IMG/VR virus record: IMGVR_UViG_3300020187_000223
Coordinates: 1 to 23,512 of that record
Reading direction: 5' to 3' (one strand)
From: a virus
DNA length: 23,512 nucleotides
Made by a program: the position numbers and the translations under genes. The notes below the pieces were generated by a model. That model had not been told where the DNA came from and did not search any database. It was given only the letters and a program-made list of their open reading frames with translations. This document shows, piece after piece, positions 895 through 20,611 of this stretch (position 1 is the stretch's first letter; each line of letters opens with the position of its first letter).

Positions 895-2211
895 CTACTG
901 AAAGCGTCCGATGTGATTGATAAACTTGAAGCGTCCCTTTAGGTCACGCTCACCCTCTCGGTTCTTGGCTACATTGTAGTCCATCTCTAGGTAGCTAACT
1001 CCATTGGAGTCCACTGCCTTGCAGCTATCTGCGTTGCCACCCTTTGGCCACATTAGCAAAGCGATGTCCGCATCATTCTCAATATCACCAGAGTCCTTTA
1101 GGTCATAGAGCACAAGTCCAGTGTCCCGCATAGCACCCGTCCTGTTGACTTGAACTAATAGAATGACAGCTACGTCTAACTCCATTGCCATCTGCTTGAT
1201 GCCATGGGATGCCTGTGAGATACCCTCGTGCTTACTGATGTTTGGATTGAAGGGGATCAACTGCAAGTAATCCACGACGATTGCTTTTATGCCATGCTTG
1301 CGCTTTAGGGATCGTGCCTTGGAGCGCAGGTCATCGATACCACGGACATGGTGAACTGTATAGATGGGAGCTTTACCAATCTTATCGATGGAGTCATCCA
1401 CTAGCGTCATCTCATGGGGAGTGATGCTCTTGTCCACGTACTTCTTTAGATTAACTGCGGAGCACGTCTGCGTCATGCGCTTGGTCAACTGCTGTGCTGG
1501 CATCTCAAAGCTAAAGATAGCTGATGGGATACTGCTGGAGATTGAGTTCCTAAGAACAAAGTTCAATGCCAACTGGGATTTTCCGCAGGATGTAGGGGCG
1601 GCTATCACACAGACCTCACCCTGTGCAATGCCACCCTCGTCTAGTTTCTCATCCAAGTGAGGGATACCAAAGGATATCTTCTTGGATACGTATGTTCCGT
1701 CTGAGATGCTGTGAAGCCTAGTCTTTAGATCGCTTGCCGCGACGGACAGGGTATTATCCGCACTGGCACTGGCATCCATAATCTTACGGACTTCAGCCTC
1801 AGTCTTGGAGGCAACGTCACTGGTGTCAGCATTCTCATTTAGGGACTCAAGCTGTAGCTTGTAGTGCCTAGCTAGCTGTCTAGCTCTGCTCTTACCTAGA
1901 ACGATCTTAGCCGCAGCACGCCCAGCGAGTGGAGTACAGGGGGAATCCATAATGCTCATGATGCGAATCAACCCACCAACCTCGTCCAGCATATTGATGC
2001 TGCGTAGTTGGTTAGCTACATTCACCTCGTTGATCTCATCCTTGTTGTTGATGATCTTCCCGATACTATCAAATATAGATGAGTTTTTATTGCTGTAGAA
2101 GTCATCCTTTGTTATGATGGCTGATAACTCGTCGTAGACTGCACCGTCCAAGTCGGAGATGCAGCTAGCTAGTATGGATTCCTCTGCTTCAATTGCGTTT
2201 AGTTCGTTCAT
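895..2211 (-). CDS. dnaB: Replicative DNA helicase, DnaB family
   Basis: A 438-residue RecA-fold hexameric helicase that would unwind DNA at the phage replication fork. Visible motifs are Walker A at residues 204-212 (AAPTSCGKS), SFEM at 234-237, Walker B at 311-319 (IVVDYLQLI, with Asp), the QVNR segment near 354-357, the DLKDSGDIENDAD block at 370-382 and the NREG...KGRF C-terminal motif. Residues 1 to about 150 fit the DnaB N-terminal helical domain and linker. Length matches the family. The ATG at 2211 has no Shine-Dalgarno sequence but a leader rich in A and C (CAACCCAAATAAAATACC). The HTH gene lies 26 bp upstream. No separate primase gene is visible in the window and no primase domain is seen in this protein, so priming must come from elsewhere in the phage or from the host. 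Confidence 0.95.
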   Translation of the reverse strand: MNELNAIEAEESILASCISDLDGAVYDELSAIITKDDFYSNKNSSIFDSIGKIINNKDEINEVNVANQLRSINMLDEVGGLIRIMSIMDSPCTPLAGRAAAKIVLGKSRARQLARHYKLQLESLNENADTSDVASKTEAEVRKIMDASASADNTLSVAASDLKTRLHSISDGTYVSKKISFGIPHLDEKLDEGGIAQGEVCVIAAPTSCGKSQLALNFVLRNSISSSIPSAIFSFEMPAQQLTKRMTQTCSAVNLKKYVDKSITPHEMTLVDDSIDKIGKAPIYTVHHVRGIDDLRSKARSLKRKHGIKAIVVDYLQLIPFNPNISKHEGISQASHGIKQMAMELDVAVILLVQVNRTGAMRDTGLVLYDLKDSGDIENDADIALLMWPKGGNADSCKAVDSNGVSYLEMDYNVAKNREGERDLKGRFKFINHIGRFQ

Positions 2212-3266: not shown

Positions 3267-3713
3267 CTATATTAGTTCGTTGTTAGTTGTAGCTACCTTC
3301 TTGGTAACTGAAGAGTTGTTGTTATGCTTATTACTAAAGTCCGCATCTTTGGTGTCGTCAATAGCAAATAGCCCATTAAGAGCATATTTTCGAGCATAGG
3401 ATGAGGCTGCCCCAGTAATCTGGCTTTCGTCCATACCCTTTTTTGTTTCTGCCTCACGAGCGAATCCCACGGCATCAGCAATTCTTTCGCTGCCATGTAT
3501 CAACATTGCCATCGCTTTTACATATACACGACCCTCAATGCTAACAACATCATCGCTGACAATTAATGCACAATCGTGCTTTTTAAGCAGGGGCTTCACA
3601 GCCTCTAAAATATCCTCAGCACTACGATACTGGTAGTTGCCAAAGTTATTGCGTTGTCCCTTAGGAGCTCTTAACTCCGTTTGGATTTCTGATAGTATGT
3701 TTTTATTTTCCAT
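3267..3713 (-). CDS. erf: ERF family single-strand annealing protein
   Basis: A 148-residue recombinase of the ERF superfamily, which anneals complementary single strands during phage recombination and replication. The diagnostic features are the N-terminal block FGNYQYRSAEDILEAVKPLL (residues 24-43), the central AREAETKKGMDESQ (85-98), and TGAASSYARKYALNGLFAID (100-119). The tail after residue 125 is Asn/Lys/Thr-rich and probably disordered. The ATG at 3713 was chosen because family members begin just ahead of a helix like NILSEIQTELRAPKG. A GTG at 3776 would add 21 untypical residues lying inside the upstream gene. The start overlaps the end of the endonuclease VII-like gene by 11 bp. The exonuclease two genes upstream is the natural partner, since it would make the single strands ERF anneals. 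Confidence 0.92.
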   Translation of the reverse strand: MENKNILSEIQTELRAPKGQRNNFGNYQYRSAEDILEAVKPLLKKHDCALIVSDDVVSIEGRVYVKAMAMLIHGSERIADAVGFAREAETKKGMDESQITGAASSYARKYALNGLFAIDDTKDADFSNKHNNNSSVTKKVATTNNELI

Positions 3714-4143
3714 TAGTAATTTGTTTACGATATAAGACTGTGCGTTGTTTTGAGTTGGTGCAAGCATTAATTTCACTTTTATTTACTTTTAATGCTTTTA
3801 ATGCAAACACTTGATCTGCAACAGGTAAGCGACAAAACCTAGATGCCAACTGCTTTAATCCCACTGGATGAAGGATGTCCGTGTCACCTTGATCCAAGTA
3901 ATCTGCCATGCTTCTCAGTATGCTTGGTAAGCCAGCAGTGGAACTCGTTCCGAACCTACGGAAGCTATTCTCAACACGACCCAAGAAGGTGTTACCCTCC
4001 ATGGAGATGACTCCACGAACCATACCACTTGTATGGTTGTGATCCACGCAGGGTTTATAGCATCCAGTCTGCATCACTGGACACTTCTTTGGTAGGTTTT
4101 CGTTTCGGTATTGGGGTAATTGGGAATGCTTCAGATACTTCAT
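3703..4143 (-). CDS. Endonuclease VII-like HNH nuclease, degenerate zinc site
   Basis: A 146-residue protein resembling phage recombination endonuclease VII, which cleaves branched DNA such as Holliday junctions. The core is CPVMQTGCYKPCVDHNHTSG followed by MVRGVISMEGNTFLG, residues 21-55. The DHNH motif (34-37), G40, R43 and the conserved Asn51 are present. In the family the second zinc knuckle is a CxxC just before that Asn; here it reads SMEG, so two expected cysteines are missing while three (C21, C28, C32) remain upstream. Zinc binding may therefore be altered. The ATG at 4143 lies 89 bp inside the upstream gene, an unusually long overlap. The context with ERF and an exonuclease supports a role in recombination or in resolving DNA before packaging. 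Confidence 0.75.
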   Translation of the reverse strand: MKYLKHSQLPQYRNENLPKKCPVMQTGCYKPCVDHNHTSGMVRGVISMEGNTFLGRVENSFRRFGTSSTAGLPSILRSMADYLDQGDTDILHPVGLKQLASRFCRLPVADQVFALKALKVNKSEINACTNSKQRTVLYRKQITNGK

Positions 4144-4324
4144 GTTCCTTTATCTCGATGATGGTTATTTTGAGACCACGCTTGGTGGCCATAGTAGTTT
4201 CCTTACCTTTTCTTGAATTACCGAAAGCGAACTTAATGGCATTTGCTTCGGAGTTAGCTATCTTCCAAGTCCTGTGAATACATTCCCTGTTTACCTCCTT
4301 GTAGGTTATTAGGTAGGCTTTCAT
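4055..4324 (-). CDS. Small hypothetical protein overlapping the nuclease gene
   Basis: An 89-residue protein starting MKAYLITYKEVNRE, with alternating beta strands and a helix (SEANAIKFAFGNSRKG), then TKRGLKITIIEIKEHE and a disordered Pro/Lys/Asp tail. The ATG overlaps the stop of the exonuclease gene as ATGA, which supports coupled translation. The last 30 codons overlap the endonuclease VII-like frame by 89 bp, and the low-complexity tail is the part that overlaps. No family is recognised with certainty. Confidence 0.65.
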   Translation of the reverse strand: MKAYLITYKEVNRECIHRTWKIANSEANAIKFAFGNSRKGKETTMATKRGLKITIIEIKEHEVSEAFPITPIPKRKPTKEVSSDADWML

Positions 4325-5079
4325 TGAACATTCATGAAGTCCATCCAGTAGATTTCAGATGTGAGCTTAAAGCGTTCGATACCCTTCTGCATTTGTTTCC
4401 AAGTCCACTCCTTGTGGTAGTGCTTCTTGGATCTAATGTCCACGCATATACTCATAATGCTCGGAAGGTATTCTAAGTCCCACATCCTAGCTAGCATCCA
4501 ACTCTCGATAGCTAGCTGAGTGCAGTCCTTCTTTTCATAGAACTTACCACCTCGACCCTTACAGTCACGGCACTTGTAATCAGCCATGAAGTATTTTCCA
4601 TCGGGTAGTTTACCAACGAAGTCCACTGACCCAGCAACTTTGATTTCATTGTCCCAAGTAATTAGCTCACTAGCTACGGGTTCAATACTCTCATCAGTAA
4701 TGTACTTGAGAAAGGGTTCAGCCCATTCATCCCATACTGAATCCAACTTGGGTTTCTTATTAGCTAGGATAGCATTCGTGTGATCCTCTAGTCTCTTATG
4801 AACAGTTGTCCCGAACTCAGAGGATGTAATCTCTTCACCATCAATTGGAGATGTCCGCATACCATACTTGCGTGTTTCAATCTGCCTCTGCGATGCACGA
4901 GGAAACTCCCTAGCTAGATCAATATATTGTTGAGGAGCCCAGATACCATCCAAGAATGGATCCTTGATGATACCCATGACAGTTGTTACTGATGGAAACG
5001 CACCGACTTTCTTAGCCTGTGCGGGTGTTGCTGCTTTCGTTAGAAAGGGTTCGTTTTCGCAATTGTAGAAATGACTCAT
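4321..5079 (-). CDS. PD-(D/E)XK exonuclease, RecB/Cas4-like
   Basis: A 252-residue nuclease of the RecB-like PD-(D/E)XK type common in phage recombination modules. Visible motifs are FGTTVHKRLE (residues 89-98, His94), Glu138 in ASELI, Asp153 in AGSVDFVG, the D-x-K pair Asp167/Lys169 in MADYKCRD, and Gln188 in the helix CTQLAIESWML. These match the usual order of catalytic and scaffold residues. Four cysteines occur (C7, C170, C173, C186), but no complete Cas4-like iron-sulphur set is obvious. It would resect double-stranded ends to provide substrate for ERF. It starts 4 bp after the stop of the initiator-like gene and has no Shine-Dalgarno sequence. Confidence 0.88.
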   Translation of the reverse strand: MSHFYNCENEPFLTKAATPAQAKKVGAFPSVTTVMGIIKDPFLDGIWAPQQYIDLAREFPRASQRQIETRKYGMRTSPIDGEEITSSEFGTTVHKRLEDHTNAILANKKPKLDSVWDEWAEPFLKYITDESIEPVASELITWDNEIKVAGSVDFVGKLPDGKYFMADYKCRDCKGRGGKFYEKKDCTQLAIESWMLARMWDLEYLPSIMSICVDIRSKKHYHKEWTWKQMQKGIERFKLTSEIYWMDFMNVQ

Positions 5080-5083
5080 ATTA

Positions 5084-5524
5084 TTAGAAGGGTTCTGTGT
5101 TTATTGTATTATTATTGTATACTGGTATAGGTGTTGCAGTTTTGTTATGGCTTGTTGCAGTTTTGCAAATGGGTTTTACGGATTTGTAAACGGCTTTTGT
5201 CCATGTTTTATCCTGCTTTACTTCATTCAGCATACTAGGAGAAAGGCTATACCAACGAGTTTTGTCGTAAGCCATTCGATTAAATGAGTCGCTAACCAAT
5301 ACGGATTGCTTCTCAAGGTTCTTAAGGGTTCGCCATACTTGCATATCGGAGAAAAAAGGAAACACCGAACGCCAACCCTCCCTAGAGTTGAACGTCCAGT
5401 GCTTGCCCTTGTGATAATTTCTCCCATCTTTTTCGTTTAGTAGTACGTAGTAGATGATCTTGTGCAGAATGATTGCCTCCTTAAGTCCGTACTTCACAGC
5501 ATGGTCTTCGTTGAGTGCAAGCAT
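5084..5524 (-). CDS. Winged-helix replication initiator-like protein
   Basis: A 146-residue protein that resembles phage replisome organisers. It has a helical winged-helix-like domain over about residues 1-105, with the pattern HWTFNSREGWRSVFPFFSDMQVWRTLKNLEKQ split over residues 42-73, then a wing-like segment ending in KTRWYSLS. The C-terminal 40 residues are low complexity (CKTATSHNKTATPIPVYNN). Their coding DNA contains tandem TTGCA-type repeats that recur elsewhere in the window. This recalls lambda O and related initiators, whose binding sites lie within the gene, which is why I infer an initiator role. It could instead be a regulator acting on those repeats. The gene is 5 bp downstream of its predecessor and 4 bp upstream of the exonuclease. 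Confidence 0.65.
   Translation of the reverse strand: MLALNEDHAVKYGLKEAIILHKIIYYVLLNEKDGRNYHKGKHWTFNSREGWRSVFPFFSDMQVWRTLKNLEKQSVLVSDSFNRMAYDKTRWYSLSPSMLNEVKQDKTWTKAVYKSVKPICKTATSHNKTATPIPVYNNNTINTEPF
5117..5174. repeat. TTGCA-type repeats inside the initiator-like gene
   Basis: Read on the plus strand there is a palindrome TATAC-TG-GTATA (5118-5129), then two direct repeats of 21-22 bp (5132-5152 and 5153-5174) built on TGTTGCAGTTTTG and ending in ATGGCT or ATGGGT. Bases 5117-5138 are identical over 22 bp to 10898-10919. The second copy is the better match to the array at 10913-10979. These are iteron-like or operator sites and at the same time code for the repetitive C-terminus of the protein. 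Confidence 0.7.
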
Positions 5525-5529
5525 AGTGA

Positions 5530-5910
5530 CTAATCAAGCAGTTCTTTCATGTCCATGATGAACTCGATGCCCTCAAGCACTGAATCCGAGTCCTCGTATG
5601 GATAGGATGAGATGATTAGGTTTGTCCCGTCATCATAGAACTCGACCACTGCATCGCCCTCGGATGGATGACCAATTACATCCCACGAGACATTGCCATT
5701 GATAACGAAGTCCAAGATTTCAGCCTTAGTGCGGGGCTCAACGGCTTTATCGGGTTCCATCATTTCCAGAAGTTCATCGCGGAGGATGTACTTTTCGCCA
5801 TCATTTAAATGACCGTAGTATCCCTCTGAGATGCAGTTATTTCGTCCGATGCAAACTACAACGGTGGATGCTAGGACATGAGATGTCCCACGGTTTTTTT
5901 CGTATATCAT
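5530..5910 (-). CDS. Acidic hypothetical protein, first gene of unit 2
   Basis: A 126-residue acidic protein starting MIYEKNRGTSHVLAST. The first half looks beta-rich (VVVCIGRNNCISEGYYG), and the rest mixes helices and strands (EGDAVVEFYDDGTNLIISSYPY). No membrane segment or known family was recognised. The ATG at 5910 has an A-rich leader (CCAATAAAATAT) and no Shine-Dalgarno sequence. It is the first gene after the terminator at 6071-6101, with a 160-bp spacer containing one TTGCA-type repeat, so it is probably transcribed from its own promoter together with the recombination genes. Confidence 0.7.
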   Translation of the reverse strand: MIYEKNRGTSHVLASTVVVCIGRNNCISEGYYGHLNDGEKYILRDELLEMMEPDKAVEPRTKAEILDFVINGNVSWDVIGHPSEGDAVVEFYDDGTNLIISSYPYEDSDSVLEGIEFIMDMKELLD

Positions 5911-6070
5911 ATATTTTATTGGCTTCTTGTTTATGTTATGGGGATTTACCCCTCGACCTAACTAGGGTTGCAGATTTGCAATAGGGTGTCAAATGTTTTT
6001 TTTAAAATAATCGCTAGGATCGAACTTTGTCCATAGTAGTGCAGTGGTATCCGAAGGAAATTTTTGGCAC
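5911..6070 (-). promoter_or_regulatory. Leader of unit 2 with one TTGCA-type operator
   Basis: The spacer between the terminator at 6071 and the ATG at 5910 has no gene. It holds one copy of the repeat family at 5966-5987 (plus strand GGTTGCAGATTTGCAA followed by TAGGGT). On the minus strand a TTGACA hexamer immediately precedes the repeat (plus 5988-5993), so a repressor or initiator bound here would cover promoter DNA. No good -10 hexamer was found at 17 bp from it. A short GGGG-ATTTA-CCCC hairpin lies at 5940-5952 in the presumed untranslated leader. Confidence 0.5.
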
Positions 6071-7124: not shown

Positions 7125-8630
7125 TTAGTCCTTGAGGATTTCACGCATTAGGCGCTGAGCTAGCTCGTTGGCATCACAGGCGATAACGCTGCGACCGAAG
7201 TGCTTATCCATGCGTTTGCGACCAGAGCTCAGCAGACTTGGGAAGGGCTCGATGTAGGTAGCGATGGCGTTGATGCCCATGTTGCGATATGCTTGGGTAT
7301 CAATGTCGTTATCACGTAGGTAGCTATCGGTGAAGACAACCGTTGTGGTGGATGCCTTGATCTTGGCTAGGTGCGTCTTCATGCATGCCATGATTCCCTC
7401 ACCATTGCCAGATGGGTAGAGATCATTGACCCACTTGTCTGCGTCATCCTTCTTCACCACATAGCTCTTACACTTATGGCTGAATGAGCACGACAGGATT
7501 AGGTTGAGATCAATCATCTGCTTGCGAGCTAGCTCACGGAAAGCCAGTACGAACTCACGACCACCATTGATCGCCCATGGATCACGCATGGAGCCACTCA
7601 TGTCAACGATCATGGTCACACTGCGCTTGCCATTGCTGCGCTTGCGATTGACGAATGCACGATCACTGCCACACATGGCTGCGTTGGCATGTAAGCGTGT
7701 ACCATTGCAAGACAGGCGATTGCGAGTAGTCCGAGCGGATTGCACGATGTTCTTCATGCAGCGTGCGATGCGTGTGATTTGCTGCTTATTGATGGGCATC
7801 TCATTTTTGAACCACTCATACTTTCTAAGGTGCTCGGAGTCTGCCTTCATCTTGTCCAGACCAGTGGGTGCGATGGTTGGCTGGCTCTTCTCCTTGCTCT
7901 TCTCATCCGTGCTACCATTGACCATTGCATCCGCATACTTCGGATCAATCTCTTCTCCGAAGATCGCCACCCACTCCTTCACGATGGGTATCAAGCACTG
8001 GCTGGTGTGCGCTCGGCATGCTCTGCGATAGAATTTAAGGATCAGTAGGCGAGTGACGCGCTCTTTGCCAGCTTCAAGAATCTTCTCAGTCCCAGTCCAC
8101 CTTGGCACGTATGCGCTTGCTTGCTTCTTGATGCCAGCTTCATTGGTTTTGATTGCCCATAGTAGAGCAGATGCGCTGCTGTATGCTGCGTCTACATCTT
8201 GGTAGTTAGTCCATCTGAATGCACCATCACCATCCTTGCGTGTGGCACTTGCGTATTCGATGCGGATGTCCTCAAAGAGATTCCACAGGCGAAATGGCAG
8301 GGACTCAGACCTAAGCTCCTTAGCTACAGCATCATCTCTGCACGTTAGCAATCCGTGCTCTGTCTCATGTCGAATGACCACCTCGATGAACTTCTTCATC
8401 TTGGCATCGTTTGACTTGGTATCTGCATTGCAGATGGTATCCAGTTGCGTGCCCACCTTGATGATGTGCTTGTCACTCTCGAATGACCAGCACGCTGTTG
8501 GCACACTGGCATCGATGCCGATGTCGCAGGATTTACCTGTTGTCTTCACCATGCGAGTGATAACTCCACCCTTCTGTTTTCCTACGATGTTTCGTCTGCA
8601 TGTGCTTATCGCTTTTTTGATTATGTTCAT
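7125..8630 (-). CDS. CobT-like von Willebrand A domain protein with HExxH motif
   Basis: A 501-residue protein. The C-terminal vWA domain starts near residue 336 with the metal-ion-dependent adhesion motif D343-M-S345-G-S347, followed by the second acidic site in VVFTDSYL (Asp435). The N-terminal region contains HETEH (88-92), an HExxH pattern, and LFEDIRIE (118-125), as in metallopeptidase-like N-termini of some vWA proteins; CobT has a similar acidic helix. Residues 240-262 are a charged, likely flexible linker. The gene follows the AAA+ gene by 39 bp. MoxR-type ATPase plus vWA pairs normally act as chaperone machines that load or remodel a target (RavA-ViaA, NorQ-NorD, CobS-CobT). Phage copies are often labelled cobT, but no cobalamin gene is present here and a role in cobalt insertion is not supported. 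Confidence 0.82.
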   Translation of the reverse strand: MNIIKKAISTCRRNIVGKQKGGVITRMVKTTGKSCDIGIDASVPTACWSFESDKHIIKVGTQLDTICNADTKSNDAKMKKFIEVVIRHETEHGLLTCRDDAVAKELRSESLPFRLWNLFEDIRIEYASATRKDGDGAFRWTNYQDVDAAYSSASALLWAIKTNEAGIKKQASAYVPRWTGTEKILEAGKERVTRLLILKFYRRACRAHTSQCLIPIVKEWVAIFGEEIDPKYADAMVNGSTDEKSKEKSQPTIAPTGLDKMKADSEHLRKYEWFKNEMPINKQQITRIARCMKNIVQSARTTRNRLSCNGTRLHANAAMCGSDRAFVNRKRSNGKRSVTMIVDMSGSMRDPWAINGGREFVLAFRELARKQMIDLNLILSCSFSHKCKSYVVKKDDADKWVNDLYPSGNGEGIMACMKTHLAKIKASTTTVVFTDSYLRDNDIDTQAYRNMGINAIATYIEPFPSLLSSGRKRMDKHFGRSVIACDANELAQRLMREILKD

Positions 8631-8669
8631 AATATTGTATATCTCTTGAGTTGTTAGTTAATTACTGAG

Positions 8670-9971
8670 TTATGCTAGTATGCTGGCGATCTCTGCCACA
8701 CCATTGATGGAGTCCTGTGTGATGTCACCTGTGTCTGAGTCCCATGCTTTGAGACCATCCAGACCATTGGCACACATCCACATGAGCACGCTGGAGGCGG
8801 TGTTATCGGTGCTGTGTGTGCACGCTGTCTCAAGATTGCGGATGTCCAGAGCTGTGAGTATCTGACCAGTGGCTTTCATCTGGCGACTGCGCTCCATTGC
8901 CATTGCGAATCGACCACCCAGATCAGCAGCATCAGCGATACTGAACTTGGTAGCTACGCTGGTAGCTATGTTGGCTACCATGACTGGATCGAACTGCACG
9001 TGCTTGAATAAGAAGCGTGATCTGAATGCCTCTGGTGGTATCACTTCGCACAAGTTGGTTGCGCAGATGATATGCAGATTGTCCATAGCACATGTCAGCG
9101 TTTCGAGCACACCTTTGTCGTTGTGTTTGGTCGTTAGCTTGTAGCGCTTGATACCATCCGCATCTGGCTGGGGCGCTAGGAAATCCAGCATCTTCTCCAT
9201 GACCTTGGGCGATAGGCGAAAGACTTCATCCATGAAGAACAGCACACTCTCACCTTTACTGGCTAATCGTACAGCGTTAGCTAGCTTGCCATCTGATACG
9301 ATGAAACCGTTGCCATCTTCTCTGGGCGTTGCACCACCGATGATCTCATGCCATTCGTCCATGTCATCAGAGCAGCCATGTGTAATGCAGTGATCGTAGG
9401 ACTGTCCCAGCAGTGAGATGCTGTAGCTTTTACCGTAGCTAGGTGGCGCTGAGATGCACACCTTGGTAGGATTCGCTGATCCGCTATTGTAGAATGGCTG
9501 GATCAATTCCAATATGGGATTATTGCCAGATGCCACAGCCACAGCCAAGGGTAGTCTGCTGGATGTCCCACCCTTCATTGCATCTGCGATCTTGTCCAGT
9601 GTGTCAGCCAGTGGAGCCAGTGCATCCACTTGGTTTTGCATCTTCTCTATGCTTGGCGACACATCGTTAGCAATTGCCTCCTGCACTACATCCCGTACTT
9701 CGTCCATGTTTATGGATGAGCCACCACCCAGTGCATCTTGAATGGCTTTTAGCTGCTTCTCGGCTGGTGTCATGGCATATTGGTGGGGCACTGCTGCTGG
9801 TGCTGGTGTGCCGAGGATAGCCATTGGATCGCCACCCACTTGCTCCACCCATGACTTGAGTTGTGCTTGAGATGCATCAGCGATCTGGCGACCAGTGATT
9901 CCCAGCGTGATGCTTGCGTTGTTTGTTTTGCTTGTTAGGTACTGGCGTAGTTTAGTGTTGTTGTTCTTCAT
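8670..9971 (-). CDS. MoxR/CobS-type AAA+ ATPase
   Basis: A 433-residue ATPase. Residues 1-140 form a phage-specific, mostly helical N-terminal region with a Pro/Ala-rich linker (54-62) and a probable coiled segment (91-132). The AAA+ core follows: Walker A APPSYGKS (175-182), Walker B VLFFMDEV (243-250, Asp248-Glu249), sensor-1 IICATN (301-306) and an arginine-finger-like FRSRF (315-319). The pattern fits the MoxR branch that includes CobS, which is common in phages. It would form a ring that powers the vWA partner encoded next in the operon. Its ATG is the first start downstream of the 1-kb non-coding gap, so its transcript probably begins there. The cellular or viral target is unknown. Confidence 0.87.
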   Translation of the reverse strand: MKNNNTKLRQYLTSKTNNASITLGITGRQIADASQAQLKSWVEQVGGDPMAILGTPAPAAVPHQYAMTPAEKQLKAIQDALGGGSSINMDEVRDVVQEAIANDVSPSIEKMQNQVDALAPLADTLDKIADAMKGGTSSRLPLAVAVASGNNPILELIQPFYNSGSANPTKVCISAPPSYGKSYSISLLGQSYDHCITHGCSDDMDEWHEIIGGATPREDGNGFIVSDGKLANAVRLASKGESVLFFMDEVFRLSPKVMEKMLDFLAPQPDADGIKRYKLTTKHNDKGVLETLTCAMDNLHIICATNLCEVIPPEAFRSRFLFKHVQFDPVMVANIATSVATKFSIADAADLGGRFAMAMERSRQMKATGQILTALDIRNLETACTHSTDNTASSVLMWMCANGLDGLKAWDSDTGDITQDSINGVAEIASILA

Positions 9972-10295: not shown

Positions 10296-10465
10296 TATAA
10301 CTTAAAGAACAGACTGCATTCAATCAGTTGTAGCTAGCTATGGCGATGTTTATTTTCATTTATTTTAGGTGGCTCGGAGCCCAGTGTCAGAGCGCCATGG
10401 ATCGAATGCAGAGTTAAAGAGCCAGTTATATCGAGCCCAAACTGCTGGCAAATTGACACCATAAA

Positions 10466-10513
10466 GACAGGTAGATAGGTAGGTAGGTAGACAGGTAGAT
10501 AGGTAGATAGGTT
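10466..10513. repeat. GGTA/GATA microsatellite, two 24-bp copies
   Basis: Two tandem 24-bp copies (10466-10489 and 10490-10513) match at 22 positions. Each begins GACAGGTAGATAGGTAG and is itself made of four-base GGTA and GATA units. The minus-strand translation (Thr-Tyr-Leu-Pro repeats) is a by-product. Slippage-prone repeats of this kind are uncommon in compact phage genomes. Confidence 0.75.
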
Positions 10514-10735
10514 GGTATAAGTAGATACAATCCATTTCCACTGCGCTAAGGATAAACCACACTCATAAGGATAGACACAGCTATATACAGGCAAAACACG
10601 GAAGTAATCACGTAGCATATGTAGCTAGCTACGTACCATGAGGATGTCCATAGTATTGGTATACAACGAATTAGGGTAGATAGGCGTACGGTGCACGGTG
10701 CGCGGACGGCAGGTGTCGCCCAGTGCCACAGCAAT

Positions 10736-10788: not shown

Positions 10789-10897
10789 GACACCCCACAA
10801 AAAAATTCAAAATCCATGCGCCCGTAAAGACCTTGACATCCAGAGTAATATAGCACTCACTGAGGAAATGACGACCCTCCTTATTTCTATATTGTAT

Positions 10898-10979
10898 GTA
10901 TACTGGTATAGGTGTTGCAAATTTGCAATGGGTTATTGCAAAATTGCAATAGGGTCCTGTTGCAAAAATGAAATAGGGT
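10898..10979. repeat. Iteron-like array: palindrome plus three TTGCA-type repeats
   Basis: The array begins with the palindrome TATAC-TG-GTATA (10899-10910). Three direct repeats of about 22 bp follow at 10913-10933, 10934-10955 and 10958-10979, each with TTGCAAA, a second TTGCAA-like half (degenerate in the third copy) and ending in TGGGT or TAGGGT. The first contains the perfect dyad TTGCAAATTTGCAA (10915-10928). The first 22 bp are identical to 5117-5138. The array ends 11 bp before the ATG at 10991, so a bound protein would also control the rightward module. Confidence 0.75.
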
Positions 10980-10990
10980 ACACTAGCTAA

Positions 10991-11548
10991 ATGGATAATA
11001 AGGAAGAGAAAGACGCACTGATGCAAAGCATCTCCTTGGCTATTGTGGAGATCCAGAAGGATAAGGAAGTGCACAAGACCAAGAGCCTAAGTCGGCATAA
11101 CCCAGAGAAGGTTGCTAGGATTCTATACCTGCACGCACTGGGTTGCTCTCAGACTAATATGATCCGCAAGCACGGTATCTCTAGGAGTACCATTGTACAG
11201 GTGCTAGTGGATTACTCGGATCACACGAACTCCTTTAGGGAGCTAGGGGGACAGCTTTCCGCTAGGAGTTACGTCAACCTAGAGTCCCTAGAGGAGGATG
11301 TCATTGATGGCCTAAGAGTAAAGCTCGACAATGGGTATGAGCCAGAGTTCAAGGACCTAAAGGAGATTTCAATTGCCAAGGCAAACTCCCAGAGACAAGC
11401 AATGACAGCCAGAGGCGAGGCATCCCACGTAGTGGATGTGAAGCAGGTGTATACAATGGATGACTTCAACGATACCCTGAGTGCCGCTAGGGATCGCATA
11501 CAGGAGCTAAAGCAAGCGGATGTAATTGATGTAGCGAAGATACGTTAA
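10991..11548 (+). CDS. HTH protein, putative small terminase subunit
   Basis: A 185-residue protein with a helix-turn-helix at about residues 42-74 (ILYLHALGCSQTNMIRKHG, then ISRSTIVQVLVDY), a helical middle and a C-terminal segment (MDDFNDTLSAARDRIQELKQ) that could be a coiled coil. Length, domain order and position as the first gene of the packaging module fit a small terminase, which recognises phage DNA and recruits the large subunit. No diagnostic terminase motif is seen, so a transcription regulator acting on the adjacent TTGCA repeats is the main alternative. No Shine-Dalgarno sequence precedes the ATG. Confidence 0.55.
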   Translation: MDNKEEKDALMQSISLAIVEIQKDKEVHKTKSLSRHNPEKVARILYLHALGCSQTNMIRKHGISRSTIVQVLVDYSDHTNSFRELGGQLSARSYVNLESLEEDVIDGLRVKLDNGYEPEFKDLKEISIAKANSQRQAMTARGEASHVVDVKQVYTMDDFNDTLSAARDRIQELKQADVIDVAKIR

Positions 11549-12180: not shown

Positions 12181-13833
12181 ATGGAATTAGTATTTACACC
12201 GCATCCCCTCATAGAGGCCCCTACGGACGAGGAGATCCTTATCCTAGGGCAGAGTGACCCCAGTGTCCTTGAAGAGCTTCACAGGGCACGTGAGGGCCTT
12301 ATACGGGCATCACAGGAGGATCCCCTTCGGCATGGTTTCGACCTAGATGGTTGGGCGAGGATTCGGAGTGGTGTACAGGAGTACAATGAAGTGCTAGCAT
12401 TGGGTGGGAATCGCAGTGGTAAAACCACGGGGTGCGCCAAGCTAGTGATGGAGGCCGTAACGCAGAACACAGATGGTCACGTTGTGTGCTTCTCTCAAAA
12501 TGCAGATACATCCGTTAAGGTGCAGCAAGCGGCGATCTGGGATATGATGCCCAAGGAGTTCAAGAAGAAGACCAAGAGCATTGAGGGCTACATTAATTTC
12601 TCTATGCAGAATGGCTTCACGGCATCCTCCTTTATCTTCCCAGACACTAGGACCCGTGTGGACTTCAAGACGTACACGCAGTTCAGTAACAACCAGACCA
12701 TCCTAGAGGGCTTCCAGTTCGGTTTTAAGGGTAACCCCGCCCTTAACGTTGGTGCTTGGCTTGACGAGTACCTAGGGGACGCTGCTCTCGTTAATACCCT
12801 GCGCTTTCGATTGGCAACGCTGAACTCCAAAATGCTCTTGGGGTTTACTCCCATTGACGGATACACACCCTTCATTGCGGACTACCTAAAGAATTGCAGG
12901 ACCCTAGCTACACGCCCCGCAGAACTCCTGAACGATGAAGAGGTTCCAGTGGTACAATACTCCCCGCTTAGGGACGCAAGCATCGTGTACCTGCACTCCG
13001 ACGAGAACCCCTTTGGAGGATACGAGCGGATCAAGAAGGATCTAATGGGTCGCCCAGAGGAAGAGATTCGTGTGCGTGCCTACGGTATCCCAGTTAAGAG
13101 CATTACATCCCTATTGCCCCTGTTCTCAACGGACGTACAGGTGCTGGGTGATGAGGAGAATGCCAACGGGATGACGTTCCCCGACATATCGGATAAGTCG
13201 GAGTACACCTGCTATCAGGTAGTTGACCCCGCGGGAGCAAGGAACTTCTCTGCTATTTGGGCAGCGGTAAATGAGTTCGGGGAAGTGTACATCAGCAGGG
13301 AGTGGCCAGACCGAGCTAGCCACGGGGAATGGGCGTTGTTCGGTGAAAGATGGAAGTACGGTCCAGCAGCCAAGAAGATAGGTTACGATGTACAGGGGTA
13401 TTGTGCACTCTTCGATGAGATAGAGGAGGAGATGGGCGTTGAGGTATTTGAGCGCATTGGGGACTCAAGATATTTTGCAAGGGAGAATGAGAACAACTTG
13501 GATCTTTTTGCATCCTTCGCTGAGTTTGACTTTCACTTCGTTCCCTCCGATGGTAGGCAGGAGATCGTAGGTATACAGGCACTGGACGAATGGTTCTCAT
13601 ACAATCCAAACTACGAGCTGGATTCCGCTAATATGCCCAAGTGCTTTATTCATGATTCCTGCGAGAATCTAATCGATAGCCTAATTAACTACAACGCACA
13701 GGGTAAGTCCGATGAGGCACTGAAGGATTTCTTTGATCTAATTCGGTATTTGCGAATGGCGAATGCTGGGGATGGACCAATTCACTACACGGACACTGAC
13801 TTTGAACAGACCAGAACAACAGGAGGATACTAA
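12181..13833 (+). CDS. terL: Terminase large subunit
   Basis: A 550-residue packaging motor that pumps DNA into the prohead and cuts the concatemer. The ATPase domain shows Walker A LGGNRSGKTT (residues 74-83), Walker B VGAWLDEY (190-197, Asp195-Glu196) and a coupling-type motif LLGFTPIDG (219-227). The C-terminal RNase H-like nuclease has Asp349 in VVDPAG, Asp428 in IGDSRYF and an acidic cluster KDFFDLIRYL (515-524), the expected three metal-binding positions. The ATG at 12181 follows the membrane peptide by 3 bp without a Shine-Dalgarno sequence. The stop overlaps the next start (TAATG). Confidence 0.95.
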   Translation: MELVFTPHPLIEAPTDEEILILGQSDPSVLEELHRAREGLIRASQEDPLRHGFDLDGWARIRSGVQEYNEVLALGGNRSGKTTGCAKLVMEAVTQNTDGHVVCFSQNADTSVKVQQAAIWDMMPKEFKKKTKSIEGYINFSMQNGFTASSFIFPDTRTRVDFKTYTQFSNNQTILEGFQFGFKGNPALNVGAWLDEYLGDAALVNTLRFRLATLNSKMLLGFTPIDGYTPFIADYLKNCRTLATRPAELLNDEEVPVVQYSPLRDASIVYLHSDENPFGGYERIKKDLMGRPEEEIRVRAYGIPVKSITSLLPLFSTDVQVLGDEENANGMTFPDISDKSEYTCYQVVDPAGARNFSAIWAAVNEFGEVYISREWPDRASHGEWALFGERWKYGPAAKKIGYDVQGYCALFDEIEEEMGVEVFERIGDSRYFARENENNLDLFASFAEFDFHFVPSDGRQEIVGIQALDEWFSYNPNYELDSANMPKCFIHDSCENLIDSLINYNAQGKSDEALKDFFDLIRYLRMANAGDGPIHYTDTDFEQTRTTGGY

Positions 13834-14436: not shown

Positions 14437-16530
14437 ATGGAAGATAAAGAGCTAGAAGCCTACTACGTCACATCCAAGCCAGACATTAACGAATTGAAGC
14501 GTGACTACGAAAGTGATGTCACTGAGCTCACAGCGTACGTGTCCCAGTGCCAAGATAGTTACAACAATCGTAACGCCGAATGGCTGGGCAAAAATAGCCA
14601 GCTAACTAAAAGCGGGGACCAAGCGTTCCCTTGGGACGGTGCATCGGACACAGAAGTAAGGCTCATCGAGCAGTGCATCACTACCTATGTGGGACTCATG
14701 ATGAACGCATTAACCAAGAGCAACATTCGTGCGTACCCAATTGAATCCTCTGACATCAAGAAGGCTGGAGTAGTTTCATCCTTCTTGAAGTACATGCAGA
14801 ACTCATACATCCGCGACTTCCGCTCGGAGTGCGAGACAGCAGCAAACAATTTACTTGAGAAGGGCATCGCTATTACGTACGTAGACTGGGAGATTAAATC
14901 CAGAACACACGACGAAGAGTTTAACTTGGATCTAATCGAGGAAGCAGCACCAGAGCTCTACGACCTACTGGCGGACGAGGATCGCGACGAGGAGACCATC
15001 GCAATGATGACGGACATGTTTGATTATGTCGATATCCCCAAGGCAAAGAAGGCCCTTCGTGAACTCCGTGACTTTGGAGTAGCTAAGATCCCAGTAGCCA
15101 AGAAGGATGTATCACGGCCCTTTGTAGAAACAAAGTTCTCTGACATTGATATTGTCATTCCAGCGTACGTAACAGACATTCAACGCTCGCCCCGTGTGCA
15201 CATGCGTGCGTTCCTTACTCCCCAAGAGATTGAGAACTGCGTAGAAAACAAGGGATGGGATGCTGAGATTGCGGAGGAACTCATTGAGAACTACCGTGGC
15301 TTTGACTACTCTGGTATGAACCAGACTACGTACAGCTCGCTGCGATCCTCCCAAGCACGAGGGGGATCAACTTACGGCATGTCTGGCATGGTGGACTCCA
15401 AGGATCTAATCGAGGTTGTATACACCTACCGTAGACTCATCGATGAGAAGAGCAACTCCGAGGGCATCTACCTAACAGTGTGGAACCCAAGGCTCACTAC
15501 GGGCTACCTGAGCAACGAATTGCTCTCTGGCTATGATGAGTATCCATTTATCTTAACTCGTCTGAGCAACGCTGGTAAACGCATCTACGATGTGAACACC
15601 TTTGGCGACCTGCTTCGTGGCCCCCAAAAGCAAATGAAGACACTCCGTGATGGTTGGAGTGATCAAATGGCGTTGGCCGTTGCACCCCCACTATTACATC
15701 CAGTCGGAAGACCACCAGCCCAAATGGGTGCTGGTGCATGGATTGGTGTTCGTGCAAACGAAAAGTTTGAGTACATGAATGTTCCAAATACATCGGGGGC
15801 TGCTAGCAGTCTAGAGAAGTATGTTCAGCAGGAAGCAATGGATCTAGTTGGGCTCAACGAGGATAGCCAGCTAAGCCTCCAGCGCCAGCAGTTCACTATC
15901 GATAAGTTTCTTACGCACTGCTCCAGTATCCTGAAGCTAGCATACAAGTCCTTCTTGGTATTTGGACCAGATGAGAAGTTCTTCCGAGTGACTGGCTACC
16001 CAGACGAGCTAGTTATCTACAAGTCCCCAGAGGACGAGAGTATTGATGTCAATATCTCCTTTGATGTTCAGAACCAAGACCCAGAAACAATGAAGGCCAA
16101 GATTGCGGCAGTCCTTGAGCTAGCTAGAAACTCACCAAGTAATACATTCAATGTACAAGCAGCGGAGCAGTTCGCAGCGAATGCCATTGATCCAAGTATT
16201 GCGGATGCGATTATCCAGCCAGAGGGACAGGGTCAAGAGGAAATGGTTAAGGATGTTACCGATGATCTAGCTAAGATTTACGCTGGTATACCAGTGGGTG
16301 CTCGACCAAATGGTGGGCAGATTGCTATGCAGCTAATCCAAGAGTACACTAGCCAAGAGGGTATCCAAGGCAGAATCCAATCGGATCCTAGCTTCATGGC
16401 TAACCTACAGAACTACGCAGCTCAGTATCAGCAGCAAGTTGCTCAGCAGAAGAATGCAGAGATCGGACGCTTGGGTGCGGCTCCCGCTGCAATGGGTTCC
16501 GTTGACACTCAAAACCTAGGAGAATCCTAA
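14437..16530 (+). CDS. Portal protein
   Basis: A 697-residue protein forming the dodecameric ring through which DNA enters and leaves the head. Size, position after the terminase and the family-like N-terminal sequence (AFPWDGASDTEVRLIEQCI, starting at residue 63) support this. The central region has typical portal segments such as DLIEVVYTYRRL and GDLLRGPQKQMKTLRDGW. The C-terminus is Gln-rich and helical (YAAQYQQQVAQQKNAEIGRL), as in portals that project a barrel or crown. Residues about 165-200 are very acidic. A TAATG junction joins it to the next gene. Confidence 0.88.
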   Translation: MEDKELEAYYVTSKPDINELKRDYESDVTELTAYVSQCQDSYNNRNAEWLGKNSQLTKSGDQAFPWDGASDTEVRLIEQCITTYVGLMMNALTKSNIRAYPIESSDIKKAGVVSSFLKYMQNSYIRDFRSECETAANNLLEKGIAITYVDWEIKSRTHDEEFNLDLIEEAAPELYDLLADEDRDEETIAMMTDMFDYVDIPKAKKALRELRDFGVAKIPVAKKDVSRPFVETKFSDIDIVIPAYVTDIQRSPRVHMRAFLTPQEIENCVENKGWDAEIAEELIENYRGFDYSGMNQTTYSSLRSSQARGGSTYGMSGMVDSKDLIEVVYTYRRLIDEKSNSEGIYLTVWNPRLTTGYLSNELLSGYDEYPFILTRLSNAGKRIYDVNTFGDLLRGPQKQMKTLRDGWSDQMALAVAPPLLHPVGRPPAQMGAGAWIGVRANEKFEYMNVPNTSGAASSLEKYVQQEAMDLVGLNEDSQLSLQRQQFTIDKFLTHCSSILKLAYKSFLVFGPDEKFFRVTGYPDELVIYKSPEDESIDVNISFDVQNQDPETMKAKIAAVLELARNSPSNTFNVQAAEQFAANAIDPSIADAIIQPEGQGQEEMVKDVTDDLAKIYAGIPVGARPNGGQIAMQLIQEYTSQEGIQGRIQSDPSFMANLQNYAAQYQQQVAQQKNAEIGRLGAAPAAMGSVDTQNLGES

Positions 16531-16776: not shown

Positions 16777-17343
16777 ATGAGTTTAGCAAAACTAGCAATT
16801 AAGGGAGGGATCCGCCTAATCAAGGGTGGAGCCAAATCCTACGGAAAAATCAAGAAGGCAAAGTCCATCTCTAAGGGTGGCGTTGAGTCCGCTCTTAGCA
16901 GGGCTGGCGTTCCCCGCAGCCTAGGAAAGATCAAGGCCAAAGCCAATGCATTCAAGGGAGTTGCGTCCGCTGGGGCAACTAAGGCAGCTAAGGTAGCTAA
17001 GACTACCTCCAAGCGCACGCCAAAGGTTAATCCATATGGTGCAGCAGCAGCGGTGGGAGCCGCAGGTGGAATCGCTCTTCAAAGCAAGATCCAGAAGGCA
17101 AAGAAATCACCAGCAGCACCCAAGATGTCAGCGCCCAAGAAAGCAGCGCCCAAGAAAAAAGCAACCGTTAAAATTGCTCCCTACAAAGCAAAGAGTGTAG
17201 TTGCAAAGGCAAAGCCCCGTGCGGCTAGTTCTACTCCAACAGCAAAGAAGACACCCACCAGCTTTTCTGATGAGAAGAAGAAGGTCGGATACGTAAAATC
17301 TAATCGTTCGGGGCGTGGAGGTTTACGCACTCGTGGTCGTTAA
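16777..17343 (+). CDS. Lys/Ala-rich histone H1-like protein 1
   Basis: A 188-residue, highly basic protein (abundant Lys, Ala, Ser, Pro), resembling eukaryotic linker-histone tails and bacterial H1-like proteins (Hc1, BpH1) in composition rather than by a folded domain. Features are a basic N-terminal third, a small Gly/Ala hydrophobic patch at residues 88-101 (GAAAAVGAAGGIAL), AxPKK-type repeats (112-127) and a terminal GRGGLRTRGR. It sits between portal and scaffold with a second H1-like gene directly after it, so it may bind DNA within the head or neutralise it during packaging. That role is inference. Its ATG has an AACACAACCCAAAAATATA leader and no Shine-Dalgarno sequence. Confidence 0.7.
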   Translation: MSLAKLAIKGGIRLIKGGAKSYGKIKKAKSISKGGVESALSRAGVPRSLGKIKAKANAFKGVASAGATKAAKVAKTTSKRTPKVNPYGAAAAVGAAGGIALQSKIQKAKKSPAAPKMSAPKKAAPKKKATVKIAPYKAKSVVAKAKPRAASSTPTAKKTPTSFSDEKKKVGYVKSNRSGRGGLRTRGR

Positions 17344-17360
17344 TTTAACAGAATAATACA

Positions 17361-18380
17361 ATGGCAATCAAAAAAACAATCGCAAAAAAGGTCGCACAAA
17401 AGGTTAAAAAAGCTGCTGGCGCAAGTACCCCTAAGAAAACCGCTGGTCCAGCTAAAAAGCGGGCACGCAAAAATGTATCCAGCGGCGCAGGGACCACAGC
17501 CAAGACCAAGAATGTTCGCGCTAAAACTGGTGCAAATAATAAAACACCAACAACAAAGCCCAAGAAGGCAGCTACTCAAACACCTGCTTATAAGCCAAGG
17601 GTAAACAAGGCTCAGCCTCCATTAACTCGTGGTCAGAAAGCGGCAAACACAAGGGCCTTCAATAAAGCTCAAAAAGCCAAGGATGCAGCTAAGGGATCAA
17701 CTCCTAAGACAACTCCCAAGAAAACAACTCCCAAGAAAACAACTACTAAGCCCAAGACTACTAAGCCTAAGACTACTAAGCCCAAGACTACTAAGCCTAA
17801 GACTGCTAAGCCTAAGACTGCTAAGCCTAAGACTGCTAAGCCTAAAAAACTTAAACTAGCGAATGGTGTTAATAATTCTAAGAGTGGCACTACCCCAAAG
17901 CTAAAGGTAGCGGAATCCACTGGAAATACTAGATCGAGGGGTTACGGAGCTAATTCCGCAGCAACCTCTGGTGGCGGTAGCTCAACTGGATCATCCGCAG
18001 GGAGTTCGTCAAGTGCTTCGGGCGCAAAGCCAACAGTGTCTGGAATAGAAGCCTTTAAAGCTGGACGCAAAGCTGGTAAGCCATCGATTGCGAAAGCAAA
18101 GAAGAAGATTAAAGTAAAGACTGCAAAGGCAAGGAAGGTCGCAAAGAAGGTTGCAAAAAGTCCCTATGGAGTTATTGCTGGGTACGAAGGAACTAAGCAG
18201 GGTTTTAAGAAACTAAATAGTTCCTCTAGTGAATCAAGTACACCAGCGGCTCCAAAACCCGCAGCTCCAAAACCCGCAGCAGCAAAGCCAACAAAGCCCG
18301 CATTCACAAGAAAGAATACATTTACAAAAGCAGAAATGGAAGCAGCTCGCAAACGGCGAGACGCAACAAAAAGACGCTAA
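17361..18380 (+). CDS. Repeat-rich histone H1-like protein 2
   Basis: A 339-residue, extremely basic protein. Regions in order: Lys/Ala-rich N-terminus (1-70), a mixed basic segment with AYKPRVNKAQPPLTRGQKAA, the repeat block of TPKKT, TTKPK and TAKPK units (114-162), a Ser/Gly-rich spacer (204-220), a second Lys/Ala block (230-268) and a C-terminal part with PAAPKPAAPKPAAAKP and an RKRRDATKRR end. A segment near 265-285 (KSPYGVIAGYEGTKQGFKK) is less biased. It resembles linker-histone tails in composition only. It starts 17 bp after the first H1-like gene. It probably binds nucleic acid, with packaging or ejection the likeliest setting. A fused structural function cannot be excluded. Confidence 0.7.
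   Translation: MAIKKTIAKKVAQKVKKAAGASTPKKTAGPAKKRARKNVSSGAGTTAKTKNVRAKTGANNKTPTTKPKKAATQTPAYKPRVNKAQPPLTRGQKAANTRAFNKAQKAKDAAKGSTPKTTPKKTTPKKTTTKPKTTKPKTTKPKTTKPKTAKPKTAKPKTAKPKKLKLANGVNNSKSGTTPKLKVAESTGNTRSRGYGANSAATSGGGSSTGSSAGSSSSASGAKPTVSGIEAFKAGRKAGKPSIAKAKKKIKVKTAKARKVAKKVAKSPYGVIAGYEGTKQGFKKLNSSSSESSTPAAPKPAAPKPAAAKPTKPAFTRKNTFTKAEMEAARKRRDATKRR
17742..17846 (+). repeat. Seven 15-bp tandem repeats inside the H1-like gene
   Basis: Seven copies of ACTACTAAGCCCAAG and close variants (ACTGCTAAGCCTAAG in the last three) run in frame and encode TTKPK or TAKPK at residues 128-162. Two further 15-bp units (ACTCCCAAGAAAACA) precede them. Copies differ mostly at third codon positions, or alternate Thr/Ala. 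Copy number would be expected to vary by slippage or recombination. Confidence 0.9.
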
Positions 18381-19570: not shown

Positions 19571-20611
19571 ATGGCATTTGATGCTTCATTCAACTCTACT
19601 CCTCCGACTGGTTCGGGTGTGGGTAATCGCGAACAATTGTTGGACTTAACAACTGTTCTTTCTCCTCGCCAAGCTCCCGTCTACGGATTGCTCCCAAAAC
19701 AAGCAGCTACTGCTGACCTTGTTGAGTGGACCGTTGACAATCTTCGTGCTCCTGACGCTAGCAACGCTGTCGTTGAGGGTATTGACGTGGGTACTTCTGG
19801 TGGTGATGCACTTAAAGCTCAGTTCGGTAGCCTTAGCCGCTTGAACAATCGTCTTCAGCACTTCCGCGATACATTCAATGTATCCAAGAAGCAAGAAATC
19901 ATGGACTCCGTTACTCCAGTCCGCATCCAAGAAGCTGAAGAAAAAGCTGCTTCTCAAGTTCTTCGGGACATTGAGGCAGCTATTTGCTCGGACAATGGTG
20001 CTGTGACAGGTGCTGCGGGTGCTGCTGGTAAGCTTCGTGGCCTTGGTGTTTGGACTGATCCAACCCTAGAGGCTGGTAGTGGTGCGCAGTCTACTGATGA
20101 TGTTACTGAAGTTCCTGATGCATTCAAGACAAAAGCTGGTGCAGTTTTGTCTGATGGTGCTGAGGAGCTAACTGAGTCTCGTTTCAACGGAATGCTTACT
20201 AGCATCTTCGAGGAAACTGGCGAGCAACAGGACATGATTCTTGTAGCTGGTACATCAGTTCGTAACTCCATCATCGATGGTTTCACTCGTGTGCAAGCTG
20301 GCACAGGTAACGGTGGTGGCAACACTACTGTCTTCAATCAAGGCGATGGCAATGATGTCAACTACAATGTTGAAATCTTCCAAGGTCCCTATGGTATCGT
20401 AAAGATCATCTCTGCGAATCCTAAGTGCTTGCCTGATCAGAAGCGTGCTTATCTCCTTGATCCTTCCCTCCTCGGATGGTCGGAAGCAATGAGCATGGGT
20501 TCTACAATGCTAGAAGACCAAGGTGGCGGCCCTCGTGGTTACATCGACGCAATGGGTACTCTTTGCGTTAAGGGTCCTAATGGCCTAGGCAAGATCACTA
20601 ACTTCGCTTAG
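19571..20611 (+). CDS. Major capsid protein, SU10-like (DUF5309)
   Basis: A 346-residue HK97-fold-type capsid subunit. It opens MAFDASFNSTPPTGSG, with REQLLDLTTVLSPRQAPVYG (residues 20-39), ATADLVEWTVDNLRAPD and the long helix QEAEEKAASQVLRDIE, the order seen in SU10-type capsid proteins (DUF5309). The assignment rests on recalled pattern, length and position after a scaffold. Codon use differs from its neighbours: strong preference for GGT, GCT, CGT and CTT, as expected for a very highly expressed gene. It has an A-rich leader with a weak AAAGG at 8 bp. A strong terminator follows 16 bp after the stop. Confidence 0.88.
   Translation: MAFDASFNSTPPTGSGVGNREQLLDLTTVLSPRQAPVYGLLPKQAATADLVEWTVDNLRAPDASNAVVEGIDVGTSGGDALKAQFGSLSRLNNRLQHFRDTFNVSKKQEIMDSVTPVRIQEAEEKAASQVLRDIEAAICSDNGAVTGAAGAAGKLRGLGVWTDPTLEAGSGAQSTDDVTEVPDAFKTKAGAVLSDGAEELTESRFNGMLTSIFEETGEQQDMILVAGTSVRNSIIDGFTRVQAGTGNGGGNTTVFNQGDGNDVNYNVEIFQGPYGIVKIISANPKCLPDQKRAYLLDPSLLGWSEAMSMGSTMLEDQGGGPRGYIDAMGTLCVKGPNGLGKITNFA

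Follow-up and report, generated by a model that had tools for sequence, protein, structure and literature searches.

The viral DNA studied here appears to carry two copies of a replication origin module, one inside the gene of its own initiator and the other at the head of the packaging operon. The analysed stretch as a whole, hereafter called the window, comprises 23,512 bp of a single IMG/VR virus record (IMGVR_UViG_3300020187_000223, positions 1 to 23,512). Each module consists of an AT-rich stretch, a core box GGTATWGGT and about three iterons, in this order. Module B (5116-5196) occupies the 3' end of the initiator gene and module A (10897-10979) lies ahead of the probable gene of the terminase small subunit (terS). 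Together with a lone iteron, designated site C, they are best interpreted as a two-origin replicon similar in anatomy to that of bacteriophage SPP1: B would be the in-gene origin, A the second module, C an operator, and the winged-helix (wHTH) initiator would read the iterons. We estimate the probability of this interpretation as roughly three in four. Three elements are new: the core box, the placement of a module at the head of the packaging operon, and the clear co-evolution of A and B, which extends through a large clade of viruses.

Gene organization of the window

The minus strand carries the early genes (DnaB-like helicase, Erf, PD-(D/E)XK exonuclease, wHTH initiator), and the plus strand carries the late genes, from 10991 onward. 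The genes that are important for our purposes are the following:

895-2211, minus strand: DnaB-like replicative helicase, in the same early operon direction as the initiator (PF03796, E 2.6e-48)
3267-3776, minus strand: Erf-type single-strand annealing protein (PF04404, E 3e-38)
4321-5079, minus strand: PD-(D/E)XK exonuclease, the next gene after the initiator (phrog_298, E 9.9e-13)
5084-5524, minus strand: wHTH replication initiator, 146 aa (phrog_11233, E 1.5e-25; phrog_6493, phrog_428 and the O-like phrog_678)
10991-11548, plus strand: probable small subunit of the terminase, with an HTH, next after array A; in relatives it immediately precedes TerL
12181-13833, plus strand: terminase large subunit (TerL), late operon start (phrog_2, E 2.4e-13; 70% identical to C75C1)

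The ORFs at 14437-16530 and 19571-20611 are portal-sized and capsid-sized, respectively; these putative labels follow from position and size only. The ORF at 10991-11548 has no curated family match, and it is probably the small terminase, as it stands immediately before TerL in relatives. The preliminary description had listed its HTH product as a second candidate for binding the repeats; position favours the small terminase, and a second regulator at this place was considered less likely on that ground. Among named phages the sole close relative found is phage C75C1 (OQ984151), with 70% identity in TerL and 39% in the initiator.

Several other features of the window deserve mention. Between the initiator and array A lies an AAA+ ATPase (8670-9971), beside which a large ORF (7125-8630) without a family match resembles a vWA-type (MoxR/vWA-like) partner; in C75C1 the slot matching 7125-9971 holds an amidoligase and a gamma-glutamyl cyclotransferase. 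The structural region includes two lysine/alanine/proline-rich, histone-H1-like proteins (16777-18380), the second with KPKTT repeats. A short tandem array, AGGTAGAT/AGGTAGGT, is located at 10465-10520 in the 1-kb non-coding region upstream of array A.

Anatomy of the repeat modules

The whole window was searched for the unit TTGCANNTTTGCAANAGGGT with up to 3 mismatches and compared with 100 shuffles. Six matches were found, that is, five distinct sites and one reverse-strand match overlapping the unit at 10960; the shuffle expectation is 0.13 matches, and none of the 100 shuffles reaches six. With the same tolerance, the 14-bp half-unit alone gives 28 matches in the window against 33.6 expected, which is not above chance. 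Thus the significance rests on the full unit, on its clustering and, above all, on conservation. The sites and their surroundings are:

5070-5123: AT-rich stretch beside box B, GC 0.24, partly encoding the Asn-rich tail of the initiator
5124-5132, plus strand: core box B, GGTATAGGT, antisense to the initiator gene, where it encodes PIP
5134-5196, plus strand: iteron array B, units at 5134, 5155 and 5176 with a 21-bp (7-codon) period
5959-5995, minus strand: site C, a single iteron (5968-5981) with no box, beside TTGACA(CCC), operator-like
10850-10904: AT-rich side of array A, GC 0.36, weakly AT-rich here
10905-10913, plus strand: core box A, GGTATAGGT, in the GGTATWGGT form
10915-10979, plus strand: iteron array A, units at 10915, 10936 and 10960 with spacing 21 and 24

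The preliminary description had reported three tandem units at 10913-10979, a lone unit at 5966-5987 and two degenerate ones at 5132-5174, and had regarded the copy at 5117-5174 as coding DNA for the low-complexity tail of a winged-helix protein. The triple array and the lone unit (at 5968) were recovered, and array B does lie within the 3' end of 5084-5524 and encodes a disordered tail. The two units at 5134 and 5155 are likewise real, but their count was incomplete, as a third, degenerate unit, TTACGGATTTGTAA at 5176, had been overlooked; with three units at 21-bp spacing, B parallels array A. The identical stretch, described as 22 bp long from 5117 and 10898, exists and measures 23 bp (5116-5138 = 10897-10919). 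A and B align over 59 nt at 81%, and the flanks beyond the module are unlike. A palindrome TATAC-TG-GTATA had also been thought to lead both arrays. Relatives differ at this place (TATAATGGTATAGG, GTTTGGTATAGG, AATAGGTATAGG) and keep only GGTATWGGT, so the palindrome was ruled out as a functional unit.

The AT-rich stretch at 5070-5123 is probably an unwinding element; GC is so low in just 0.7% of the 50-mers of the window. The AT-rich side of A is mild in the window, 10% of 50-mers being equally low.

Conservation and co-variation of A and B

Relatives were gathered by initiator, by TerL and by TerS. A was read as the region before terS and B as the 3' end of the initiator gene; both could be read in 21 genomes, a count inflated by near-identical genomes. 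A search of relatives for the repeat unit had been set beforehand as a check, and it revealed box-plus-iteron modules at both sites in 21/21 paired genomes, with GGTATWGGT at A and at B in every one. Array B is conserved in L003-L021 and others. In every paired relative 21-96 bp separate array A from the start codon of terS, module A is retained across TerS/TerL clades, and in 5/5 C75C1-group genomes the box-to-ATG spacing at A is exactly 38. The 50 nt on the box side have a mean GC of 0.19 at B and 0.27 at A against 0.41 for the genomes (21 relatives). The W base of the box is A in 17/21 A sites and T in 19/21 B sites, while the remaining positions are invariant. An exact-box count labels L039, L047, L058 and L064 as having none, though these are array-bearing with a box off by 1-2 bases; five loci from the motif scan (L102, L104, L105, L107, L109) gave no blast match to 12 window proteins.

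The iterons themselves vary among lineages, the types being TTGCA, TCGCA, GGGAC, TGATCA, TTGCCC and TTTACC, and the A units match the B units of the same genome. The window has TTGCA at both sites, L202/L042 have TCGCA, C75C1 has GGGAC...GTCCC, L137 has TTGCCC...GGGCAA and L142 has TGATCA; the matching units are CTGNNAAAATTAGCAG in L134, TTTACCATAT in L169 and L180, and TTTCCCATNTTGGAAA in L193. Unit spacing co-varies too, being 22 bp in both arrays of L127 and L128 and 21 in the clade of the window.

We scored A-B similarity with the box excluded and assessed it by a permutation test in 11 representative lineages. The own A was the best partner of B in 11/11 of them (p = 5e-6), with a mean score of 15.4 within genomes versus 7.1 for foreign pairs. 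The own A-B similarity also exceeds that between lineages for A-A (9.3) and for B-B (8.1). For all 21 genomes p = 1e-5, and the own A ranks first or second in 17/21; the weaker matches are L020, L032, L037 and L127, with degenerate or mixed units. As A and B keep changing together, either the same factor reads both or they are copied into each other. The W base of the otherwise invariant box is specific to A or B, which argues against simple copying.

The initiator protein

The initiator comprises a winged-helix part (residues 1-113) and a disordered tail encoded by origin DNA. Its predicted fold has pLDDT 77, good for residues 1-113, with 120-146 disordered and the tail below 50. According to VIA-align, the nearest folds are RepA_N plasmid initiators with Z 9.4-8.5, barely above background; for the N-terminal wHTH fold of RepA_N, Z is 9.4 to 4pql versus a background of about 8.5. 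Pfam RepA_N (PF06970) does not match 5084-5524, Foldseek alone gave no match below E 0.001 for the initiator model, and a PDB sequence search returned nothing convincing. With B as a probable origin inside a gene, the Asn-rich tail and the PIP motif may be regarded as encoded by the origin itself. In nearly all relatives (A1, A2) a conserved PF/PY (x-P-F/Y) forms the end of the tail. Such an end on a disordered tail resembles SSB-type interaction tails, and our guess is that it makes a helicase or SSB-tail-like contact.

Several observations bear on what reads the sites. The recognition helix S-Y-E/D-Q goes with TCGCA units in six mutually related genomes (L033, L035, L116, L118, L124, L202). 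Where the wHTH gene is missing from a TerS relative, the array ahead of terS is missing too, in 8/8 cases with more than 7.5 kb examined; the correlation is weak, as the loss of array and wHTH is approximately one event on the TerS tree. In the sister group (L053, L059, L060, L085, L160, L184, L199, L201) TerS and TerL are homologous, and neither a wHTH initiator nor an array was detected. Judging from these patterns and from the co-variation of A and B, one protein very probably reads A, B and C, and the wHTH initiator is likely to be the reader of both A and B; TerS, which co-varies with lineage as well, is a less likely reader. It had been suggested that one protein might both initiate replication and switch early and late transcription. 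The single reader agrees with the A/B co-variation and the O-like family matches; the switching is hypothetical.

The core box in other initiator genes

A set of 171 wHTH initiator genes was drawn from phage records, from viral contigs and from the genomes of bacteria, and the box occurs in 159 of them. After removal of redundancy it is present in 91/102 such genes, from phages and prophages of several phyla, where it stands beside unrelated iterons; its control rate in random segments is 1.2%. Phages of Staphylococcus, Vibrio and Flavobacterium have GGTATWGGT directly beside their own iterons in the initiator gene, and a Geobacillus phage has a near form in the same position. To our knowledge GGTATWGGT has not been described earlier; none of the papers listed by a literature search for the string was relevant, and such a negative result carries little weight.

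One could suppose that the box and the repeats in B are conserved merely through the protein sequence, i.e., the PIP motif and the KTAT repeats, and PIP is indeed invariant in the initiator family of the window. However, PIP is the reading in 58/91 representatives, and 31/91 read the box in another frame, as TNT; two reading frames point to a DNA signal. The same box is non-coding in A, and on the sense strand of initiator genes it is absent (0/102). With the second reading frame and the non-coding copy A, the protein-level explanation was ruled out and may be considered practically negligible. Judging by where it occurs, we regard the box as an element of the DNA itself, shared by wHTH-initiator genes of several phyla.

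In phages of Staphylococcus, Vibrio, Flavobacterium, Geobacillus and others, the 139 initiator loci of at least 8 kb yielded no further module of box plus iterons; most of these loci are partial genomes, in which more distant copies may be missed. The twin arrangement therefore appears limited to the terminase clade of the window.

Site C

Site C lies upstream of the gene 5530-5910 and of the initiator. After its iteron comes GGGTGTCAA, which reads TTGACACCC on the early strand, and the site as a whole precedes the initiator operon. The site with its TGTCAA is kept in the near relatives L004-L019 and in L032, L033, L035 and L202, and is missing from distant relatives. A promoter consensus scan at C gave no convincing -10. 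The arrangement suits a putative autoregulatory operator of the initiator operon.

Beside site C, two relatives (L008:7208-7274, L006:4468-4534) carry a 67-nt element matching the Rfam tmRNA family (53 bits, model 1-374). It joins both ends of the model, that is, the tRNA-like acceptor part without the tag-coding middle. ARAGORN predicts no gene at the element in L008 and L006, and the window has no such Rfam match. The element might mimic a tmRNA or serve as a decoy, or it might be what remains of an attachment site.

Proposed mechanism and alternative explanations

From the anatomy, the conservation, the co-variation and the co-occurrence with the initiator we infer the following scheme of how the initiator binds, how the DNA melts, how the helicase is loaded and how A and B share the work. 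B, in the last third of the initiator gene, would be a complete origin with its AT-rich stretch, box and three semi-palindromic iterons, and A would be a second copy of this module, placed where the late operon begins, immediately ahead of terS. The wHTH protein would bind the iterons as a dimer, via a variable recognition helix; the box would mark where the opened region ends, and at this border the DnaB-like phage helicase would be loaded. B is the most likely starting point of early theta replication. On A the initiator may create a second origin or a fork barrier that aids the switch to concatemer synthesis, and at C, a lone iteron beside TTGACA, it probably represses its own operon. It is highly likely that B is a replication origin; for A, the role of an origin or a fork-stall site is somewhat more probable than that of an operator only.

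Several competing explanations were considered. A and C might both be operators and B the sole origin, the initiator silencing terS and the late operon until replication has begun and repressing itself. The short distance from A to the terS start codon in all paired relatives (21-96 bp) and the conserved TTGACA beside the boxless site C agree with this. However, A retains the box and the AT-rich flank, needless for an operator, consensus promoters at A are near the background level (4 found versus 2.7 expected), and distant relatives have no site C. As A carries the complete origin anatomy, a second origin fits at least as well as an operator, and we consider the purely regulatory explanation possible but rather unlikely.

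In phage lambda, cosB is directly upstream of terS, and A could similarly be a terminase recognition (cos/pac) site bound by TerS, its likeness to B being secondary. A does lie directly upstream of terS, and TerS has an HTH, its gene overlapping or abutting the array. Yet the A iterons match those of the replication gene of the same genome, and L032 and L033, with identical TerS HTH segments, differ in B iterons and in wHTH helices. A packaging site would be expected to follow homologous TerS, whereas clearly homologous TerS without wHTH goes with a missing array, and 30 TerS rows in one clade are without it. This explanation seems improbable. Still less probable is that A is a non-functional relic, or a copy of the in-gene origin that arose by recombination, with gene conversion maintaining the likeness. 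The 59-nt similarity would be consistent with it; the unlike flanks, the W base that is mostly A at A and mostly T at B in an otherwise invariant box, the retention of the module across TerS/TerL clades and the constant spacing of 38 in the C75C1 group oppose it. We thus prefer the two-origin replicon.

Comparison with known systems

SPP1, the sole precedent found in the literature on dual phage origins, has one origin inside gene 38 and another among the late genes. Each is composed of direct repeats and an AT-rich region, and gp38 binds to both; when bound to the second origin, it has been proposed to halt the fork and thereby set off the synthesis of concatemers (PMC6316719, PMC3485210). 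The window would likewise have one site in the initiator gene and a second elsewhere, with repeats and an AT-rich element, and its initiator is near a DnaB-type helicase gene and recombination genes. Unlike in SPP1, the late operon opens with the second copy, which precedes terS, and the sites are 4-7 kb apart here versus 12-13 kb in SPP1. A gp39-type helicase loader had no match among the proteins scanned, which cover the small early ORFs in part.

The preliminary description had proposed a lambda-type layout with iterons within the initiator gene, and the three regular units in 5084-5524 with their AT-rich neighbour bear this out. In lambda, iterons and then an AT-rich region follow along the coding strand within gene O (PMC7466680). 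On the initiator strand of the window the order is iterons, box, AT-rich stretch and gene end, with semi-palindromic iterons mid-gene adjoining the AT-rich region, and phrog_678 provides a distant family link to O. The differences are that two sites are present here instead of one origin, the C-terminal domain of O is missing here, and GGTATWGGT was not found in the lambda record.

Iterons of RepA_N staphylococcal plasmids are semi-palindromes converging on an A/T tract (PMC7145576). RepA_N initiators (pSK41, pTZ2162) and PLE RepA give the best fold matches (4pql, 4pt7, 5kbj, 4pta); the initiator of the window differs from them in having no Pfam RepA_N match, no C-terminal domain and a phage gene order. 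DnaD-like phage initiators share with it a homologous wHTH domain, in-gene iterons and the core box (exact in Staphylococcus phage Sebago, a near match in Geobacillus phage NIIg9.7). Unlike here, their C-terminal domain is of the DnaD type and a loader gene of the G39P type is present, and the 139 loci without a second module are of this kind.

Implications for phage replication

We tentatively suggest that GGTATWGGT might be a general core element of wHTH-initiator origins, invariant while the iterons diverge freely, and that it might be recognized by some conserved portion of the initiator or as a single strand at the opening point. In this clade, initiator occupancy at the second origin might link the completion of theta replication with late transcription and with packaging. 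What is known of phage origins comes mostly from a few model systems. In the present case the sequence by itself points to the origin, the iterons and an invariant core box in about 100 non-redundant initiator genes, and the annotation of origins could be extended to many further phages. The twin arrays offer a natural series of matched initiator/iteron pairs, from which one may learn how wHTH initiators choose their DNA. Finally, a second origin before terS would open the SPP1 idea, in which an initiator-bound second origin switches the replication mode, to direct tests in another group of viruses, and an abundant one.
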